From positions 124,001 through 188,000 of the forward strand of contig NZ_AUMA01000007.1 in NCBI RefSeq assembly GCF_000422565.1: a stretch of DNA of 64,000 bases, given 5' to 3'. This DNA is from Desulfovibrio aminophilus DSM 12254 (GTDB lineage Bacteria > Desulfobacterota > Desulfovibrionia > Desulfovibrionales > Desulfovibrionaceae). Every line of letters begins with the position of its first letter. Positions within the stretch are counted from its first letter, which is position 1. Positions 22,133 through 29,382 of this stretch are shown piece by piece. Both the position numbers and the translations under genes were made by a program. The notes below the pieces were generated by a model. It saw only the letters and a list, made by a program, of their open reading frames with translations. It was not told the DNA's origin and ran no database searches.

Positions 22133-22232
22133 TTCCCGCCTCCCCGAAGTTGGTGATGGAAGAAATTGTAGCAGAGCCGGGATGTTCCCGCAATGATTGC
22201 GGCGCGGGACCGATGGAACTATACCGCTGGGC

Positions 22233-23750
22233 ATGCGCACCGCCATCCAATCCCGGCGTCTCCTGGTTCGTCTGAACGGCGCGGGGGTGACCCGCGAGGG
22301 CCGCGTCCTGCTCCATGACGTGCATTGGCGGCCCGCCCCGGGCCAGCACTGGGCCGTGCTCGGCGCCAACGGCGCGGGCAAGACCACGTTCCTGCGCCTC
22401 GTGCGCGGCGAGCTGGCTCCCGACGATCCGGGCTCCCGAACCTACATCCTGGGCGGCGAGAAACAGGATACGCCCATCGGGCTGCGTCAGCGGGTGGGGA
22501 TCGTCTCCGCCGCGTTGCAGGATTTCTACGCCGTGGACGAGTCCGGGATCACGGCCCTGGACACAGTGCTCACGGGTTTCTTCGACACCCCGCTGCTCTA
22601 CGAGGAACCTACCCCGGCCATGCGCGCCGCCGCCCTGGAGGCCCTGGCCCTCATGGGGGCCGAGCATCTGGCCCCCCGGCTCTTGCGGGGGCTGTCCCAG
22701 GGGCAGGCCCGGCGGGTGCTCCTGGCCAGGGCCCTGGCCCCGGCCCCGGATATTCTCATCCTGGACGAGTTTCTGGACGGCCTGGACCGCCGCGCGCGGA
22801 ATCGGGCGTTGGAGTTCGTCGAGCGGGCCGCCGGGCGGGCCATGTTGCTCTGCGCCGCGCACCGGGCCGAGGATCTGCCGGGCGGCCTGACTCACGCCCT
22901 GATCCTGGACCACGGCGAGGTTCTGGCGTCGGGATCGGCCCCGGAGGTTCTGCCGCTGTATGGCGCGGACGCGGCCCCGGCGGACCCGGGCCGCTGGCGG
23001 TTCACGTCGTCCAGGCCACGGGAGAAGGTTCTGCTGCGTATGTGTGACGTCGAGGTCCGGCTCGACGGCGCGCCGGTGCTCTCGGACATCTCCTGGGAGG
23101 TGCGCGGGGGCGAGAACTGGGCCGTGCTGGGGCCCAACGGCGCGGGCAAGTCCACGCTTCTGCGCCTGGTGCTGGCCCTGGAGAGTCCCGCGGCGGTGAA
23201 CGGCCCGCCGGGCACGGTGGAGCGCTTCGGCCTGGGGGAGGAGGAGGGCGTGCTGGCGGCCCGGGCGCGCATGGCCCTGGTCTCCCCGGCGCTCCAAGCC
23301 ACCTACGCTTACGACCTCACGGCCGAGGAAGTGGTCTGGTCCGGGTTCCGGGGCAGCATAGGGCTCTGGGAGGAGCCGGACGAGGACGAGCGGGCGCGGG
23401 CCTCGGAGGCCATGGAATGTCTGGGGCTCACGGCCCTGGCCGGGCGGCGGCTGCGGAGCCTGTCCTACGGTCAGCAGCGCAAGGTTTTTCTGGCCCGGGC
23501 CCTGGTTGCCGCGCCGGACCTGCTTCTTCTGGACGAGCCCTTTTCCGGCCTGGACGCGGCCTCCCGCGCCGAGGCCCGCTCCCTGCTGGAACGTCTGGCC
23601 GAGGCCGGGCAGCGCTTTCTGCTCGTGACCCACGGCCCGGCGGACATGCCCCGGGCCGTGACCCACGTGCTCGTGCTGGAGGAGGGGCGGATCGTCTTCA
23701 GCGGGACGCGGGCGGAGTACGACGCCCGAGCACGAGAAACCCTGGATTGA
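22233..23750 (+). CDS. Tandem ABC ATPase, ModF-like
   Basis: A 505-residue soluble protein with two complete ABC nucleotide-binding domains and no membrane part. Domain 1 has GANGAGKTT, LSQGQARR and ILILDEFLDGLD; domain 2 has GPNGAGKST, LSYGQQRK and LLLLDEPFSGLD. The closest named relative by architecture is ModF, found with molybdate transport genes; ABC-F proteins are less likely given the sequence of the linker. The first ATG is at 22233, with no clear ribosome site. It diverges from the TSUP transporter. Its 3' end overlaps cysQ by 53 bases tail to tail. Confidence 0.75.
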   Translation: MRTAIQSRRLLVRLNGAGVTREGRVLLHDVHWRPAPGQHWAVLGANGAGKTTFLRLVRGELAPDDPGSRTYILGGEKQDTPIGLRQRVGIVSAALQDFYAVDESGITALDTVLTGFFDTPLLYEEPTPAMRAAALEALALMGAEHLAPRLLRGLSQGQARRVLLARALAPAPDILILDEFLDGLDRRARNRALEFVERAAGRAMLLCAAHRAEDLPGGLTHALILDHGEVLASGSAPEVLPLYGADAAPADPGRWRFTSSRPREKVLLRMCDVEVRLDGAPVLSDISWEVRGGENWAVLGPNGAGKSTLLRLVLALESPAAVNGPPGTVERFGLGEEEGVLAARARMALVSPALQATYAYDLTAEEVVWSGFRGSIGLWEEPDEDERARASEAMECLGLTALAGRRLRSLSYGQQRKVFLARALVAAPDLLLLDEPFSGLDAASRAEARSLLERLAEAGQRFLLVTHGPADMPRAVTHVLVLEEGRIVFSGTRAEYDARARETLD

Positions 23751-24474
23751 GCAGGGATTCCTTGTTGTAGAAGAAGCGGCGGCCGTCATGGAGGGTCATG
23801 GTCCCGCCCGCACCCTCGACCACGGCCTGCCCGGCGGCCGTGTCCCACTCCATGGTCGGCCCGAAGCGGGCGTAGATGTCGGCCGAGCCCTCGGCCACCA
23901 GACAGAACTTGATGGCCGACCCGGCATTGATGCGCTCGCGCACAGGCAGCGTCTCCAGGTAGGCGTCCAGGTCGGGCGTGTTGTGCGAGCGGCTGGCCAC
24001 GGCCACCAGTCCAGACGGATCGGGTTCGCGTACGGTCACGGCCTCGGCCGGGCCGTCGCCGTCGCGGCGGAAGGCCCCCAGGCCAGCGCCGCCGCACCAG
24101 GTCCGGTCCCGCACCGGGGCGTGAACCACGCCCAATTCCGGGTAACCGTCGCGCATGAGCGCCACGCAGACGCAGAATTCCCCCAACTCCTTGACGAATT
24201 CCTTGGTTCCGTCCAGCGGGTCCACGAGCAGGAACCGGCTCCAGACGCGGCGTTCGGCGTAGGAAATGTCCCGGCCCTCCTCGGAGAGCACCGGCACCTC
24301 CGGCAGCAGGGCCGCCAGACCCTCGGCCAGCACGGCCTGGGATGCCTTGTCGGCTTCGGTGAGCGGCGAGTGGTCGGCCTTGTACTCCACGTGGAAACCT
24401 CGGGCGCGGACCTCCATGATGGCCTTTCCCGCCCGGCGGGCCAGCGCGCACAACGGATCGAACAGGGAATTCAT
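23698..24474 (-). CDS. cysQ: 3'(2'),5'-bisphosphate nucleotidase CysQ
   Basis: A 258-residue Mg-dependent phosphatase of the inositol monophosphatase superfamily that turns PAP into AMP, clearing a by-product of sulfonucleotide metabolism. Motif A is SPLTEADK (residues 36-43), with EE in VLSEEGRD; motif 2 is VDPLDGTKEF near residue 87; and motif B is EWDTAAGQAVVEGAGG near 210. The ATG overlaps the stop of the upstream unknown gene as ATGA, so the two are coupled. Its last 53 bases overlap the ModF-like gene on the other strand. Confidence 0.93.
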   Translation of the reverse strand: MNSLFDPLCALARRAGKAIMEVRARGFHVEYKADHSPLTEADKASQAVLAEGLAALLPEVPVLSEEGRDISYAERRVWSRFLLVDPLDGTKEFVKELGEFCVCVALMRDGYPELGVVHAPVRDRTWCGGAGLGAFRRDGDGPAEAVTVREPDPSGLVAVASRSHNTPDLDAYLETLPVRERINAGSAIKFCLVAEGSADIYARFGPTMEWDTAAGQAVVEGAGGTMTLHDGRRFFYNKESLLNPGFLVLGRRTPPASR

Positions 24475-25082
24475 GCGGTCTCCTCCACGGTCAGTCGAAT
24501 GTCGTGTTCCGGTCCGGCGGACAGGGCATAGGCCAGGGCCGCCCGTGACACGGGCAGGCCGTCGGCCCGGATTCCCAGGAGTCCGTCCCGGAAGTCCGGC
24601 CCGCGTTCGGCCAGGAAGCGTTCCAGGCGTTCGGCCCGGAGCCTCACGCCCCGGCGCAGGACTTCCGGCCCGGCCTCATCGGCCACCATGTTGAAGAGTT
24701 TTACCAGGATCGCGGCGTCGCCGCTGCTCTTCCCGCCACAGTCCGGCCGGGCGGCGATGGCTTCGCGGAAGGCCTTCACCGGGCTGCCTCGGCGCATCGC
24801 GATGCCCGCCAGCCCGGGCATGGCCGCGCCCAGGGCCAGCTCCGCCCCGGGATGCACGGTCACGGCCTCGATGTCGTCCACGGGCGATCCATCCAGAAAG
24901 ACCGTGAGCACCCGTTCGGTGACATAGTCCGGGGCCATGCCCAGGACGTTTTCCATGACCGAACGCAGGCTCGCGCCTGAAACCGCGTTCACGCCCACGC
25001 CCTCGCGCAGCAGGGGCGCGAAGTCGGCGGATAATCCGGGGCGGACCTGGAGGAAGATGTGCGGGATCGGAACCTGAAACAT
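24471..25082 (-). CDS. Unknown protein diverging from the aldehyde oxidoreductase gene
   Basis: A 203-residue soluble protein I do not recognise. Residues about 50-95 (VLTVFLDGSPVDDIEAVTVHPGAELALGAAMPG, quoted in part) have the strand spacing of a beta-grasp or ubiquitin-like unit, which would suit a sulfur-carrier locus, but this is only a visual impression. The second half is helical and charged. GAGGAAAAACC precedes the ATG at 25082. It shares a divergent regulatory region and a perfect palindrome with the oxidoreductase and is coupled to cysQ downstream. Confidence 0.7.
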   Translation of the reverse strand: MFQVPIPHIFLQVRPGLSADFAPLLREGVGVNAVSGASLRSVMENVLGMAPDYVTERVLTVFLDGSPVDDIEAVTVHPGAELALGAAMPGLAGIAMRRGSPVKAFREAIAARPDCGGKSSGDAAILVKLFNMVADEAGPEVLRRGVRLRAERLERFLAERGPDFRDGLLGIRADGLPVSRAALAYALSAGPEHDIRLTVEETA

Positions 25083-25093
25083 GGTTTTTCCTC

Positions 25094-25113
25094 TTATGTC
25101 AGCATTGACATAA
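25094..25113. promoter_or_regulatory. Perfect palindrome, likely operator of the AOR locus
   Basis: TTATGTCA (25094-25101), GCAT, TGACATAA (25106-25113): two exact 8-base arms with a 4-base gap. It lies 12 bases from the minus-strand start and between a TTGATA-like -35 and the -10 zone of that gene, and 14 bases from the plus-strand -35. The position suits a repressor or dual regulator. It does not match the FNR, CRP or Rex consensus I know. Confidence 0.65.
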
Positions 25114-25126
25114 CTATCAAATATTC

Positions 25127-25154
25127 TTGACTTTTTGCGCTCCGAACCTATGTT
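25127..25154 (+). promoter_or_regulatory. Candidate sigma-70 promoter of the aldehyde oxidoreductase operon
   Basis: TTGACT (25127-25132), a 16-base spacer and TATGTT (25149-25154), about 62 bases before the ATG at 25216. Confidence 0.55.
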
Positions 25155-25215
25155 TTCGTAAAGCCGGTACGTCACCCGGCGCTGGAAGGCAACCCCCCAA
25201 CCAAGGAGCAGCATA

Positions 25216-26946
25216 ATGTTGAAGATACTGCGCATCAACACCCGGACGCGGGAATACCGCTTCGAGGATCTGGGCGACTATGCCGGACTCGGCGGCCGCG
25301 CCCTGACCTCGCGCATGGTGGGTCGGGAGGTTCCGGCCGACTGTCACCCCCTGTCCGCGGCCAACAAGCTGGTCATGGCGGGGGGAATCCTGGCCTGCAC
25401 GAACGCGGCCAACTCCGGCCGCACCTCGGTGGGGGCCAAGTCGCCGCTCACCGGCGGCATCAAGGAGTCCAACGTGGGCGGCCAGTTCGCCCACAAGCTT
25501 CCCAAGCTGGGCCTGCTGGCCGTGGTCTTCGAGGACAAGCCCGCGGCCGATGCCCCCTTCGTCACCGTGCTGGTGAAGAAGGACTCGGTGGAGTTCCTGG
25601 ACGCCGCCGACATCGTGGGCAAGTGCAATTACGCGGCCCACGACGTGCTCAAGGCCCGCTTCGGCGAGAAGGTCGTCACGGCTCTCGTCGGCCCGGCCGG
25701 TGAGCAGTGTCTCATGGCCTCCAACATCCAGTTCTCCGACCCCGACGGCCGTCCCAGCCGTTCGGCGGGTCGCGGCGGCCTGGGCGCGGTCATGGGCTCC
25801 AAGAAGATCAAGGCCGTGATCCTCGACCCCGAGGCCAAGGACGCCGTGGAAATGGCCGATCCCGAGAAGTTCAAGGTCGCCCGCAAGCGTTGGACCGACA
25901 TCCTCATGGGCCACCCGGTCACGAGCCAGGGGCTGCCCACCTACGGCACGGCCATCCTGGTGAACATCATCAACGAGGCCGGGGCCCTGCCGACCAAGAA
26001 CTTCCGCACCGGCCGCTTCGACGGCGCGCAGAAGATCAGCGGCGAAACCATGACCGAAACCATCAAGGCCCGCAAGGGAGCCTACAAGCACGGCTGCCAC
26101 ACGGGCTGCGTGATCCAGTGCTCGCAGATATACAACGACAAGAACGGCGAGTATCTGACCACCGGCTTCGAGTATGAAACCATCTGGGGCTTCGGGGCCA
26201 ACCTCCTGATCGACGACCTGGATGACATCGCCACCATGGACCGCACTTGCGACGAGATCGGCCTGGACACCATCGAGATGGCCAACACCATGGCCATGGC
26301 CATGGAAGCCGGATTGGTTCCCTGGGGCGACAGCAAGGGCGCGATCAACCTGCTCAGGAAGGTCGGCACCAACGATCCCCTGGGCCGCATTCTGGGCAAC
26401 GGCACGGTCTTCACGGCCCAGGCCTTCGGCGTGGACCGCGTACCCGTGGTCAAGAACCAAGCCCTGCCCGCCTACGACCCGCGCGCGGTCAAGGGCGTGG
26501 GCGTGACTTACGCCACCACCACCATGGGAGCGGATCACACCGCTGGATACGCGGTGTGCCAGAACATCCTCAAGGTGGGCGGCGACGTGGACACCCTGGG
26601 CAAGGCGGGCCAAGTGGAGATATCCAAGAACCTCCAGGTGGCCACCGCCGCCGTGGATTCCTTGGGCCTGTGCCTGTTCGTGGCCTTCGCCGTCCTGGAT
26701 ACCCCGGACGCCCTCCAGGTGATCGCGGACATGGTTTCCGGGCTCATCGGCAAGCCCTACTCCGTGGACGACATCGTGGGCCTGGGTGTGAACTGCCTGA
26801 AGGACGAGCTGGCCTTCAACAAGGGCGCGGGGTTCACCAAGGAGCATGACCAGCTGCCGGCCTTCTTCCGCAACGAGCCGCTGCCCCCGCACAACACGGT
26901 GTGGGATTTCAGCACCGACGAGATGCAGGCCGCCAAGGTCGGCTGA
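25216..26946 (+). CDS. aor: Aldehyde:ferredoxin oxidoreductase (tungsten-pterin type)
   Basis: A 576-residue enzyme that oxidises aldehydes to acids with ferredoxin, using a bis-pterin tungsten (or molybdenum) centre and one [4Fe-4S] cluster. The N-terminal domain has GGRALTSRM and SGRTSVGAKSPLTGG. The cluster cysteines are C294, C298 and C302 (GCHTGCVIQC) with C527 in GVNCLKDE as the fourth; the first gap is three residues rather than the two of Pyrococcus AOR. TTMGADHTAGYAV is a pterin-site signature of the family. AAGGAG precedes the ATG. It leads a tight cluster of sulfur-transfer-like genes. Confidence 0.93.
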   Translation: MLKILRINTRTREYRFEDLGDYAGLGGRALTSRMVGREVPADCHPLSAANKLVMAGGILACTNAANSGRTSVGAKSPLTGGIKESNVGGQFAHKLPKLGLLAVVFEDKPAADAPFVTVLVKKDSVEFLDAADIVGKCNYAAHDVLKARFGEKVVTALVGPAGEQCLMASNIQFSDPDGRPSRSAGRGGLGAVMGSKKIKAVILDPEAKDAVEMADPEKFKVARKRWTDILMGHPVTSQGLPTYGTAILVNIINEAGALPTKNFRTGRFDGAQKISGETMTETIKARKGAYKHGCHTGCVIQCSQIYNDKNGEYLTTGFEYETIWGFGANLLIDDLDDIATMDRTCDEIGLDTIEMANTMAMAMEAGLVPWGDSKGAINLLRKVGTNDPLGRILGNGTVFTAQAFGVDRVPVVKNQALPAYDPRAVKGVGVTYATTTMGADHTAGYAVCQNILKVGGDVDTLGKAGQVEISKNLQVATAAVDSLGLCLFVAFAVLDTPDALQVIADMVSGLIGKPYSVDDIVGLGVNCLKDELAFNKGAGFTKEHDQLPAFFRNEPLPPHNTVWDFSTDEMQAAKVG

Positions 26947-26970
26947 GCGTTTTCCCGCGACGACAGAACA

Positions 26971-27000
26971 GGGGGCCCGGGGCGGATGCTTCGGGCCCCC
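26971..27000 (+). terminator. Hairpin between aor and the sulfur-carrier gene
   Basis: GGGGGCCCG (26971-26979) pairs exactly with CGGGCCCCC (26992-27000) with a 12-base loop and only three T's after it. It probably attenuates or protects the aor message, giving less of the downstream genes. Confidence 0.55.
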
Positions 27001-27054
27001 TTTGCGTCTCCGTCGGCTTTTGACCAACGCCGCCGGAAAAGATAGGAGTGCCCC

Positions 27055-27282
27055 ATGCACATCAGCGTGAGATGCTTCGCCCAGCTGGTCACGAATCAGC
27101 CCGAGAACCCCGAGCACTTTCCCGTGGCCGACGGGGAAACCGTGGGCCGGGTCATGGAGCGCCTCGGCCTGCCCGAGACCGAGGTCAAGCTCATCTTCGT
27201 CAACGGCGTCAAGGCTGGGACCGGAACCGTGCTCAGGGACGGGGACCGCCTCGGACTGTTCCCGGCAGTGGGCGGGGGCTGA
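27055..27282 (+). CDS. MoaD/ThiS-family sulfur carrier of the AOR locus
   Basis: A 75-residue beta-grasp protein ending Val-Gly-Gly-Gly, the C-terminus needed for adenylation and thiocarboxylation. VGRVMERLGLP, KLIFVNGVKAG and LRDGDRLGLFPAVGGG follow the MoaD/ThiS layout. It lies 108 bases after aor and one base before an E1-like gene, the standard carrier-activator pairing. By position it probably supplies sulfur to the dithiolene of the pterin cofactor of this AOR or to another product of the locus. AGGAGTGCCCC precedes the ATG. Confidence 0.85.
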   Translation: MHISVRCFAQLVTNQPENPEHFPVADGETVGRVMERLGLPETEVKLIFVNGVKAGTGTVLRDGDRLGLFPAVGGG

Positions 27283-27283
27283 G

Positions 27284-28123
27284 GTGGACCTCGCCGGCGG
27301 AGTGGCGGCCGCCGCCGTCACGCGTGATCTGCCCGGAGGCCCCGTGCCGGTGCTTTCCCTGGAGGCCGGACGGGAGATCGCCCGGCTCTGTGGCGTCGCG
27401 GCACGGGACGTGGACGAATGCGCCCTGCGGCAAGGAGTCTGGCCCGAGCGTCATCTGCGCAACCACGCGGCTTGCACCGTCGTGGAGCAGCTCCGGCTCC
27501 TGACGGCGTGCGCGGCCGTGGTCGGCTTGGGCGGTCTGGGCGGGCATGTGCTGGAGCTTCTCGCGCGGGCCGGGGTGGGCCATATCCGGGCCTGCGACGG
27601 CGACCGCTTCGAGGCCACCAATCTGAACCGTCAGCTCCTGTCCACGGAAGACGGCCTGGGCGGCTCCAAGGCCGAGGCCGCGCGGAACCGCCTGGCGCGG
27701 ATCAATTCTTCCGTGGAGGCGGACGTGCGCGACGTTTTTCTGGACGAGGCGGGTATGCGGGAATTGCTTCACGGCGCGGATCTGGCCGTGGACTGCCTGG
27801 GCGGTTTGGCCCAGCGCAAGGCTCTGCAGGACGCGGCCCGGGATGTGGGCATCCCCCTGGTCACCGCGGCCATGGCCGGGCTGACCGCCTTCGTGGCCAC
27901 GGTGTTGCCCGGAGCAGCGGGACCGGCTGATTTTCTGGGCGGAGCCGGGCAGCCTTCCGGCGAGGACATTCTCGGCACTCCGCCGGAGAGCGTGGCCGTG
28001 GCCGCGGCGTTCCAGGGCGCCGAATGCCTGCGCCTGCTGCGCGGACGGACTTCGGCTCTGGACGGCCGGATGCTGGTCGTCGACCTGCGCTCCATGGCTT
28101 TCGAAACCCTGTCCCTGGGTTGA
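27284..28123 (+). CDS. ThiF/MoeB/HesA-family E1-like adenylyltransferase without zinc cysteines
   Basis: A 279-residue protein that should adenylate the C-terminus of the neighbouring carrier. The ATP site GLGGLGGHV starts near residue 81, with the acidic ACDGDRFEATNLNRQLL and the Lys in GGSKAEAA. About 75 residues precede the Rossmann core. The paired CxxC zinc motifs of MoeB and ThiF are missing, and no cysteine stands in the usual crossover loop after VDCLGG. The GTG start follows the carrier stop directly. It could also activate the TtuB-like carrier at 3233, since no other E1 is in the window. Confidence 0.83.
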   Translation: MDLAGGVAAAAVTRDLPGGPVPVLSLEAGREIARLCGVAARDVDECALRQGVWPERHLRNHAACTVVEQLRLLTACAAVVGLGGLGGHVLELLARAGVGHIRACDGDRFEATNLNRQLLSTEDGLGGSKAEAARNRLARINSSVEADVRDVFLDEAGMRELLHGADLAVDCLGGLAQRKALQDAARDVGIPLVTAAMAGLTAFVATVLPGAAGPADFLGGAGQPSGEDILGTPPESVAVAAAFQGAECLRLLRGRTSALDGRMLVVDLRSMAFETLSLG

Positions 28124-28136
28124 GGCGGAACCCGAC

Positions 28137-28364
28137 ATGTCGGTTCTGGCCCTGGGGCGTCAGCTACGGCCGTTCGGCGGACATCAGGCCTCGCGGGTCT
28201 GCATCATCTGCGGTCTGCTCTTCGAGCCCCGCTACGCCGAGGGCTGCGCCGAGTTGGAGGAGGACGCCTGGGTTTGTTCGCGCGCCTGCCGGGACGTGGC
28301 CTTCTATGACTACCGCGACGAGTGCGCTGACCTCGACGGTCTGCGGGCGCGGATTTTGGGCTGA
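28137..28364 (+). CDS. Small Cys-rich protein, possible zinc-binding partner
   Basis: A 75-residue protein of unknown function. Cysteines occur as CIIC near residue 22, one in EGCAEL, CSRAC near 47-51 and one in DECAD. The spacing resembles a treble-clef or ribbon zinc site. It lies 13 bases after the E1-like gene and 10 before the TrpF-like gene, so it belongs to the operon. Because the adjacent E1-like protein lacks its own zinc motifs, this protein might supply one in trans; that is a guess from position. Confidence 0.7.
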   Translation: MSVLALGRQLRPFGGHQASRVCIICGLLFEPRYAEGCAELEEDAWVCSRACRDVAFYDYRDECADLDGLRARILG

Positions 28365-28374
28365 GGCGGGGAAC

Positions 28375-29097
28375 ATGAATCCCATCATCCAGATCGCCGG
28401 GGTCAGGGATCTGGCCGAGGCCCGGATGCTTGCCCGTGCCGGGGCGACCCATGTGGGCATCCCCCTGCGCCTGGACGTGCATGCCCCGGACGTGAGCGAG
28501 GCCGAGGCCGCCGCCATCGTGCGCGGCCTGGGGAACGAGGCGGCGGTGGTCTGCATCACCTACGCCGTGGAGCCCCGCGAATTGGCCGAGCTGGCGGACT
28601 TTCTGGTGGTGGCGGGCATGCAGCTGCATGGGCCGGTGAGTCCCGGGCAGGCGGCCGAGCTGCGCCGCCTGCGGCCCGGGCTGTTTCTGATCAAGAGTCT
28701 GGTGGTGGCTCCCGGCCGGAGGGAGGCGCTCCACCGGGATGTGGAAGCCTTCGCACCATACGTGGACGCCTTCCTCACCGACACCTTCGACCCGGCCAGC
28801 GGCGCCAGCGGCGCCACGGGCAAGACCCATGACTGGTCCGTGAGCCGGGAGCTTGTGCTGTCCTCGCCCCGGCCCGTGATCCTGGCCGGAGGCCTGACGC
28901 CGGAGAACGTGGCCCGCGCGGTGCTTGAGGTGCGCCCGGCCGGGGTGGACGCACACACCGGGCTGGAGGACGCGTCGGGGCGCAAGGTCGAAACCCTGGC
29001 GCGCCGCTTCGCGGAGCAGGCCCGCGCGGCTTGGGCCGTGATGCGGTCGGAAGGCCCGGTTTCAGGGGGTGTTGCCTCTTTTCGGGGAACAGGGTAG
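28375..29097 (+). CDS. TrpF-like TIM barrel with the catalytic Cys replaced
   Basis: A 240-residue protein related to phosphoribosylanthranilate isomerase. The phosphate-binding end is intact (GATGKTHDWSV, ILAGGLTPENV, GVDAHTGLED). The enzyme's general base Cys in the KICG motif is Ala8 here (IQIAG), while the acid Asp is kept in FLTDT. There are no tryptophan genes nearby. I infer a paralogue acting on a different phosphorylated compound, possibly in the cofactor chemistry of the AOR locus. The last 20 residues after AWAVMR have no counterpart in TrpF. Confidence 0.78.
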   Translation: MNPIIQIAGVRDLAEARMLARAGATHVGIPLRLDVHAPDVSEAEAAAIVRGLGNEAAVVCITYAVEPRELAELADFLVVAGMQLHGPVSPGQAAELRRLRPGLFLIKSLVVAPGRREALHRDVEAFAPYVDAFLTDTFDPASGASGATGKTHDWSVSRELVLSSPRPVILAGGLTPENVARAVLEVRPAGVDAHTGLEDASGRKVETLARRFAEQARAAWAVMRSEGPVSGGVASFRGTG

Positions 29098-29163: not shown

Positions 29164-29382
29164 ATGTCCAAAGAAGAAGCCATTGAAGTGGAAGGCGTCA
29201 TTCAGGAAGCCTTGCCCAACGCCATGTTTCGTGTGGAGCTGCAGAACGGTCACTCCATTCTCGGCCATATTTCCGGCAAGATGCGCAAACACTACATCCG
29301 CATCCTGCCCGGAGACAAGGTCAAGGTGGAACTTTCCCCCTACGATTTGACCCGGGGCCGGATCACCTTCCGCATGCGCTAG
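29164..29382 (+). CDS. infA: Translation initiation factor IF-1
   Basis: A 72-residue S1/OB-fold protein that occupies the ribosomal A site during initiation. The sequence is canonical: [35 protein letters not shown], and the ending [16 protein letters not shown] lies 6 bases before the ATG. It follows the AOR operon by 66 bases and is probably expressed separately. Confidence 0.98.

Follow-up and report, generated by a model that had tools for sequence, protein, structure and literature searches.

We analysed a stretch of 64,000 nucleotides from Desulfovibrio aminophilus DSM 12254 (assembly GCF_000422565.1, contig NZ_AUMA01000007.1, positions 124,001 to 188,000), referred to here as the window, which carries aor, the gene of a tungsten-family aldehyde:ferredoxin oxidoreductase (AOR). 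A gene for a protein of 203 residues, hereafter the partner, diverges from aor. An original prediction, made from the sequence alone, had placed here aor, a sulfur carrier, an E1-like enzyme, a small Cys-rich protein, a TrpF-like barrel, the divergent gene and cysQ, and all of them were confirmed at their positions. So was a palindrome common to aor and the divergent gene, at 25094-25113. The locus is mostly two adjoining loci, not one module. We lean towards the reading in which it provides an AOR with its own cofactor-sulfur pair and in which the partner is an assembly factor for this tungsten enzyme, derived from MoaD and not itself a carrier.

The aor locus and its divergent partner

The features of the locus are the following (positions in the window).

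22197-23750: double-ATPase ABC protein (ModF-like), near cysQ and the partner gene
23698-24474, minus strand: cysQ, 3'(2'),5'-bisphosphate nucleotidase; its ATG overlaps the TGA of the partner gene
24471-25082, minus strand: divergent partner gene, 203 residues; ATG supported at 25082; no Pfam match
25094-25113: palindrome TTATGTCA-GCAT-TGACATAA; conserved aor operator, candidate TaoR site
25127-25154, plus strand: sigma-70-like aor promoter, TTGACT-16-TATGTT; one found, 0.3 expected from shuffles
25216-26946, plus strand: aor, 576 residues, tungsten family; Pfam AFOR_N and AFOR_C
26970-27001, plus strand: strong GC-rich hairpin downstream of aor, ahead of the carrier gene; may serve in attenuation or RNA processing
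27055-27282, plus strand: ThiS/MoaD-like sulfur carrier of the 'WorX' type, 75 residues, C-terminus VGGG; ThiS, Ub-Mut7C
27284-28123, plus strand: E1-like adenylyltransferase of the ThiF/MoeB family, 279 residues; GxGxxG, no CxxC
28137-28364, plus strand: Cys-rich zinc-finger-like protein, 75 residues, CxxC...CxxxC; no family above curated cut-off
28375-29097, plus strand: TrpF-like barrel of a separate subfamily; PRAI, 60 bits; QIAG replaces KICG
29164-29382: infA, starting 66 bp after the TrpF-like gene

For the partner gene the ATG at 25082 is preferred to a longer open reading frame (ORF) from 25241, which would overrun into aor. The overlap between its stop and the start of cysQ makes translational coupling of the two likely. 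Among 161 loci, 14 have cysQ at most 2 kb from the partner gene, several of them from the same genome. The plus-strand genes had been described as one tight run. This holds from the carrier onward but not for aor, which is set off by a gap of 108 bp containing the hairpin, so that the tight run begins only at the carrier. The hairpin is absent from the predicted terminators and has no Rfam match. It could uncouple the expression of aor from that of the downstream genes. A scan of the window with Rfam at gathering thresholds detected no known RNA, riboswitches included.

Each protein of the locus was searched for in 149 related genomes, the window's own included, and genes in this and the other sets of relatives were called mechanically; kinship among the genomes overstates their independence and inflates all the p-values given below. 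The genes found are aor in 108 genomes, the partner gene in 77, thiF in 112, the TrpF-like gene in 54 and the Cys-rich gene in 4. Of the 71 relatives that have both genes, 59 have the partner gene no more than 2 kb from aor, and the two co-occur over the 149 genomes (p 1.5e-8). The suggestion that the divergent gene belongs with aor is thus borne out more strongly than it was guessed. Pairs are found in several layouts, i.e. 31 with the partner divergent and upstream, 27 with it downstream on the same strand and 3 with it upstream on the same strand, which indicates that the pairing outlived rearrangement.

Wider samples extend this linkage. In a scan of named genomes, for which the best 80 of 340 relatives were used, an AOR lies within 2 kb in 68 of 80 loci (in L276 across an assembly gap, where an apparent AOR-partner fusion was rejected as an artefact of a run of N). 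Ten of the 80 have the one-strand order aor-partner-carrier-thiF (L221, L226, L234, L238, L248, L250, L251, L254, L272 and L278); they include Desulfobacterales, Geobacteraceae, Syntrophorhabdus, Desulfuromonadales and a metagenome-assembled genome of Spirochaetes. In a phylum-wide sample of 395 genomes, 58 have the partner and 226 an AOR (E <= 1e-60), and 57 of the 58 have both (Fisher p 1.5e-14); the exception is G419. Plasmids gave no partner gene at E 1e-3.

Twenty copies of the partner among the related genomes were scored as unlinked. Five of these adjoin pieces of an AOR where their contig ends (L165, L166, L168, L169, L176), two reach the edge of their contig (L170, L177) and one has a ThiF-like ORF 3.7 kb away (L178); the other 12 have no AOR in the fetched stretch. 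Copies with no AOR in the fetched stretch comprise L160-L164, L167, L171-L174 and L286-L289, and most of these genomes have an AOR elsewhere. No AOR was found in G144 and G419 at the thresholds used.

A single conserved operator lies in the promoter region common to aor and the partner gene of the window; the following counts support it. The core of the palindrome, TATGTC-N6-GACATA, has exactly one site in the 3.42-Mb genome. Allowing one mismatch gives three sites, and two for a reversed-pattern control; only the exact site therefore stands out. Upstream of aor the core is exact in 16 of 136 regions and has one mismatch in 16 more, as compared with 0 and 0.25 in shuffles of two-base blocks. 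Some of these regions represent the same genome twice, and some recur between sets of loci (L101/L200, L106/L201, L105/L273 and L043/L100 are the same regions), so neither the 136 regions nor the 161 loci above are all independent. The core precedes aor also in loci with a downstream partner (L155, L275) or with none (L190), and the operator thus belongs to aor. Its end is 11 bp before the ATG of the partner, and it could therefore act on both genes. From the promoter match, its centre would be about 57 bp before the expected transcription start.

The palindrome may be a site of TaoR, which has been described as regulating the tungsten aldehyde oxidoreductase (PMC11980592). Searching the genome for its gene with PF12727 yielded nothing that could be called TaoR: the matches were a 651-residue open frame on contig C4, a PstS-like protein and a LysR-like ORF, the last two judged by eye. 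One of the one-mismatch copies of the operator (G000:C10:19284-19301, L282) is near an ORF that by eye resembles a ModE-type regulator.

Relation of the partner to sulfur carriers

Two families of alignments were used. A1 (49 sequences) takes 48 of 80 homologues, near-duplicates, odd lengths and the weakest full-length match (L147) being excluded, and A2 takes 11 of these rows; A3 (64 sequences) takes 63 of the 67 usable loci among the 80 named, and A4 53 of its 64 rows. The partner carries the motif FLDGxPVDD...G..LALSAAMPGLxG..MRR. Positions G28, D69, P89, G90, G93, R106, K128 and N131 are invariant in A3, where G145 is conserved at 98%; D69, P89, G90, G93, R106 and G145 are invariant in A1. 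L147 has Ala at P89. The 49 members of A1 have no credible match in Pfam or NCBIfam: nine and three families respectively appear, each matched by a single member, with best E values of 0.006 (a DUF) and 0.07 (ThiS, 1 of the 49). Nor does the partner match any sequence of the PDB.

Profile comparison with hhalign nevertheless relates the N half of the partner to sulfur carriers, with a probability of 95% (E 3e-8) for 79 carriers and of 91% (E 9e-7) for the 74 that end in Gly-Gly. The N half also matches the C half (91%, E 1.3e-6, 39 columns). Reversed profiles remain below 1%, the best of 40 column shuffles reaches 8.6% with the carriers and 2.5% between the two halves, and the TrpF-like, ThiF and IF-1 profiles score below 1% against the partner. 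In the alignment G90 falls where the carriers have their terminal glycines. The partner itself has no free C-terminal Gly-Gly: G90 and G93 are internal to its 203 residues.

The AlphaFold model of the partner (predicted local distance difference test, pLDDT, 90.9; predicted template modelling score 0.85) has two stretches alike in the order of strands and helices. The top four matches of a second structural search, run besides Foldseek, are 6jbz, the phage protein p4, SAMP1 and a TtuB-type carrier, with Z of 4.1, 3.7, 3.3 and 3.1, values that are low and have little meaning alone. The three carrier structures, 6jbz (MoaD; 66 residues, root-mean-square deviation, rmsd, 3.3), 4hro (SAMP1; 57 residues, rmsd 2.5) and 5ztb (58 residues, rmsd 3.4), match inside residues 21-91. 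The profile comparison, with its clean controls, is the stronger of the two. Profiles and model together suggest that residues ~5-95 form a MoaD-like beta-grasp domain ending in P89-G90-x-x-G93, and that residues ~118-203 may be a degenerate repeat of the N half.

Carrier, E1 and the TrpF-like and Cys-rich neighbours

The AOR scores 192 bits with AFOR_N and 265 bits with AFOR_C, its translation has the cluster ligands CxxCxxxC...C (CHTGCVIQC and a later Cys), and solved relatives exist; tungsten would be its metal, as its family suggests. The carrier has a ThiS/MoaD-type domain and the C-terminal Gly-Gly, 72 of 83 related ORFs ending GGG or AGG. The E1 has the ThiF domain and the GxGxxG nucleotide motif. 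Two CxxC zinc motifs are typical of MoeB; the window's E1 has no CxxC and none of 55 homologues has two. That the Cys-rich protein supplies the zinc knuckle which the E1 lacks was considered and rejected, the double CxxC being wanting in all 55. Moreover, no small ORF of the CxxC...C type lies within 500 bp of 52 of the 56 thiF ORFs; the remaining four comprise three loci of the genus (two from the same genome) and one ORF that looks like chance.

In 39 of the 101 genomes with both, thiF is no further than 2 kb from aor, and the two co-occur (p 6e-16). The prior statement that AOR loci with MoaD-like and MoeB-like genes are known agrees with two reports that have Desulfovibrio among their genomes (PMC1779556, PMC13328260), and aor, carrier and thiF as a known arrangement for maturation of the tungsten cofactor is supported, also by the co-expression of aorDE in an Aromatoleum system (PMC9295118). 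By analogy with MoaD and MoeB, for which these steps are established, the E1 would adenylate the carrier, leading to its thiocarboxylated form; this would donate sulfur for the pyranopterin dithiolene, probably in concert with MoaE, of which the genome has a single match, outside the locus, besides three AOR-family matches. Separately, genomes of genus g55 (G112, G124, G134) have two aor copies of nearly equal score in one genome, and other members have pieces of aor at contig ends, perhaps collapsed repeats.

The TrpF-like gene is of a different kind. In TrpF the Cys of the KICG motif is catalytic. It is missing in all 56 aligned TrpF-like members (52 relatives, three plasmid proteins and that of the window; L046 was set aside as a wrong-frame pick), while the other TrpF-family gene of the genome has KVCG and scores 128 bits with PRAI, as against 60 for the window's. 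The TrpF-like proteins form a real subfamily, apparently uncharacterised and not belonging to AOR.

That the TrpF-like and Cys-rich proteins join the others in one pathway, to a dedicated tungstopterin or another sulfur product, now appears very improbable. The gene order is kept in three members of the genus (in the third, G001, it is split over two contigs and is probably the same), and over the 149 genomes the TrpF-like gene is present in 40 of the 77 that have the partner gene, though not adjacent to it, and in 14 of the 72 that lack it (p 4e-5); it is likewise associated with thiF (p 0.003), and common descent could account for both. But outside the genus the TrpF-like gene scatters independently of aor, the outcome that the original prediction had named as its refutation: it is within 2 kb in 2 of the 42 relatives with both, and co-occurrence shows no bias (Fisher p 0.34). 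Its neighbours in 53 loci (L043-L095) include a ModF-like ABC ATPase (within 1.5 kb in 15), infA (within 3 kb in 8) and thiF (near in 5). Three relatives with 43-46% identity (L010, L011, L012) are on plasmids of Streptomyces lavendulae, Corynebacterium aurimucosum and Agrobacterium vitis, in clusters that resemble those for indigoidine or minimycin (a pigment and a C-nucleoside), beside upp, a pseudouridine-5'-phosphate glycosidase, a gene of non-ribosomal peptide synthetase type and an EamA transporter. Comparable clusters have been described (PMC2830990, PMC8724604), the accessible text of the latter mentioning no isomerase or TrpF. As for the Cys-rich gene, the 149 genomes have it in the three genus members and as one weak match with an internal stop. 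On linkage we therefore rejected both genes as parts of the AOR system, and the Cys-rich protein is probably outside it. In genus g29 (L045, L048, L049) thiF adjoins the TrpF-like gene and infA, the carrier being there too in two of the three genomes, and in two of its members (G030, G082) aor and the partner are on other contigs; this layout indicates that two loci came together in the window. A plausible grouping is thereby corrected, since the TrpF-like and Cys-rich genes adjoin the AOR system without being part of it.

Role of the partner and closest known systems

As encoded, the partner cannot offer a free C-terminal glycine, and a pseudo-carrier is therefore the most likely reading of it. 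It would act as an adaptor or chaperone that binds the E1, molybdopterin synthase or apo-AOR and, once docked, would help to load the tungsten bis-pyranopterin cofactor. We infer this role, these binding partners and tungsten as the metal; what the observations support is the linkage to aor and the co-occurrence with it, the operator, the repeat within the protein and its profile similarity to carriers.

Several results weigh against such an assembly factor. The partner is wanting in 37 of the 108 aor-bearing relatives, among them genomes with an AOR about 64% identical to that of the window and thiF within 2 kb (e.g. G089, G094, G098); it is thus not generally required. Conversely, 6 of 77 partner genomes have no AOR at E <= 1e-100, three of which (G062, G100, G116) abut AOR fragments at contig ends. 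In the phylum sample at least 39 of the 58 partners are near an AOR (40 with a contig-end fragment), a lower bound set by scoring three AOR candidates per genome, and neighbours were mixed in the ten contexts inspected for copies distant from aor (4 of the 20 unlinked copies and 6 of 20 from the phylum sample). On the structural side the Z-scores are low, with a phage protein in second place, and Foldseek found nothing at E <= 0.001 for the whole model, an absence that does not amount to a new fold. The C half alone (model pLDDT 82.7) reaches only 17% with the carriers and has no convincing fold match, again with nothing from Foldseek at E <= 0.001. Lastly, a genome-wide chlorate screen in D. 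vulgaris, where aor mutants are chlorate-resistant, recovered aor and cofactor genes, and the 15 genes described in the accessible text include no such partner, carriage of the gene by that strain not having been looked up (PMC10102598).

Two other roles can be set against that of a non-carrier assembly factor. The partner could be a small subunit or regulatory protein that binds mature AOR, for its stability or for docking of an electron partner, with no part in cofactor assembly. This would fit the tightest linkage being to aor, since the partner and thiF lie within 2 kb in only 2 of 75 genomes and within 6 kb in 17 of 75. We nevertheless consider it rather unlikely: no Cys is conserved that could hold an Fe-S cluster (the commonest Cys column has 38 of 64), similarity to MoaD-type carriers points toward cofactor assembly, and about half of the linked pairs are opposite in orientation, which would be unusual for a stoichiometric subunit. 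Still less probable is a pro-carrier, in which a cut after Gly90 (or Gly93) would free a MoaD-like carrier, to be thiocarboxylated by the neighbouring E1, the C half being removable or regulatory. QbsE and CysO are carriers that need a peptidase to expose their Gly-Gly, and the invariance of P89, G90 and G93 in both alignments, with G90 at the carriers' glycine end, agrees with such a cut. But the C half is conserved as well (K128, N131 and G145), which is odd for a discarded tail, an ordinary carrier ending in Gly-Gly is already present in the locus, and the Ala of L147 at P89 also speaks against it.

A bolder possibility, which we regard as doubtful, is that the partner represents a new ubiquitin-fold class serving tungsten enzymes. 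Such a pseudo-carrier with two beta-grasp domains in tandem, or else a carrier released by cleavage at Gly90, would select tungstopterin over molybdopterin for AOR. It would then give a genetic handle on the choice that cells make of tungsten over molybdenum.

The assembly of the tungsten cofactor and its delivery to the right enzyme are poorly understood. Being widespread, without Pfam or NCBIfam match, almost confined to genomes with AOR and usually adjoining it, the partner is a specific candidate for a maturation factor still missing. The literature searched does not mention its family; subscription papers and supplements were outside that scope, and it may be in print elsewhere.

The closest known systems are the AOR-MoaD-MoeB neighbourhoods of Iyer et al. 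2006 (PMC1779556), which likewise combine aor, a ThiS/MoaD-like carrier and an E1, with a proposed role in the pterin cofactor, and the 'WorX' and thiF genes beside class I tungsten oxidoreductases (PMC13328260), where the ThiS-like WorX corresponds to the carrier here and not to the partner. D. desulfuricans and D. vulgaris are among the genomes listed with AOR-linked carrier and E1 genes (PMC1779556, PMC13328260). In their accessible descriptions and gene list the partner family is unmentioned. In Aromatoleum, two small genes of aorABCDE beside aor are described, in the text available, as resembling MoaD (PMC6365974, PMC9295118, PMC10413684). Co-expression of aorDE there raised AOR from 4.5 to 16 U/mg and added tungstate brought it to 85, with tungsten contents (1.06, 0.39, 1.52) out of step with activity (PMC9295118). 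That enzyme differs in being a three-subunit NAD-linked AOR.

TrpF and the TrpF-like protein share the PRAI family, and alignment with solved TrpFs brings the segments GKT-hDW and GGL into register, whereas KICG with its Cys is replaced by [IV]Q-x-AG. The resemblance to the TaoR system lies in the conserved palindrome upstream of aor, placed as an activator site would be. MoaD, ThiS, SAMP1 and TtuB resemble the partner in its putative beta-grasp N-domain, by profile and weakly by structure, and in a conserved glycine at the position of their tail; in the partner this tail equivalent is internal and is followed by ~110 residues with a second repeat. The system itself is known, and the partner is a new component of it.

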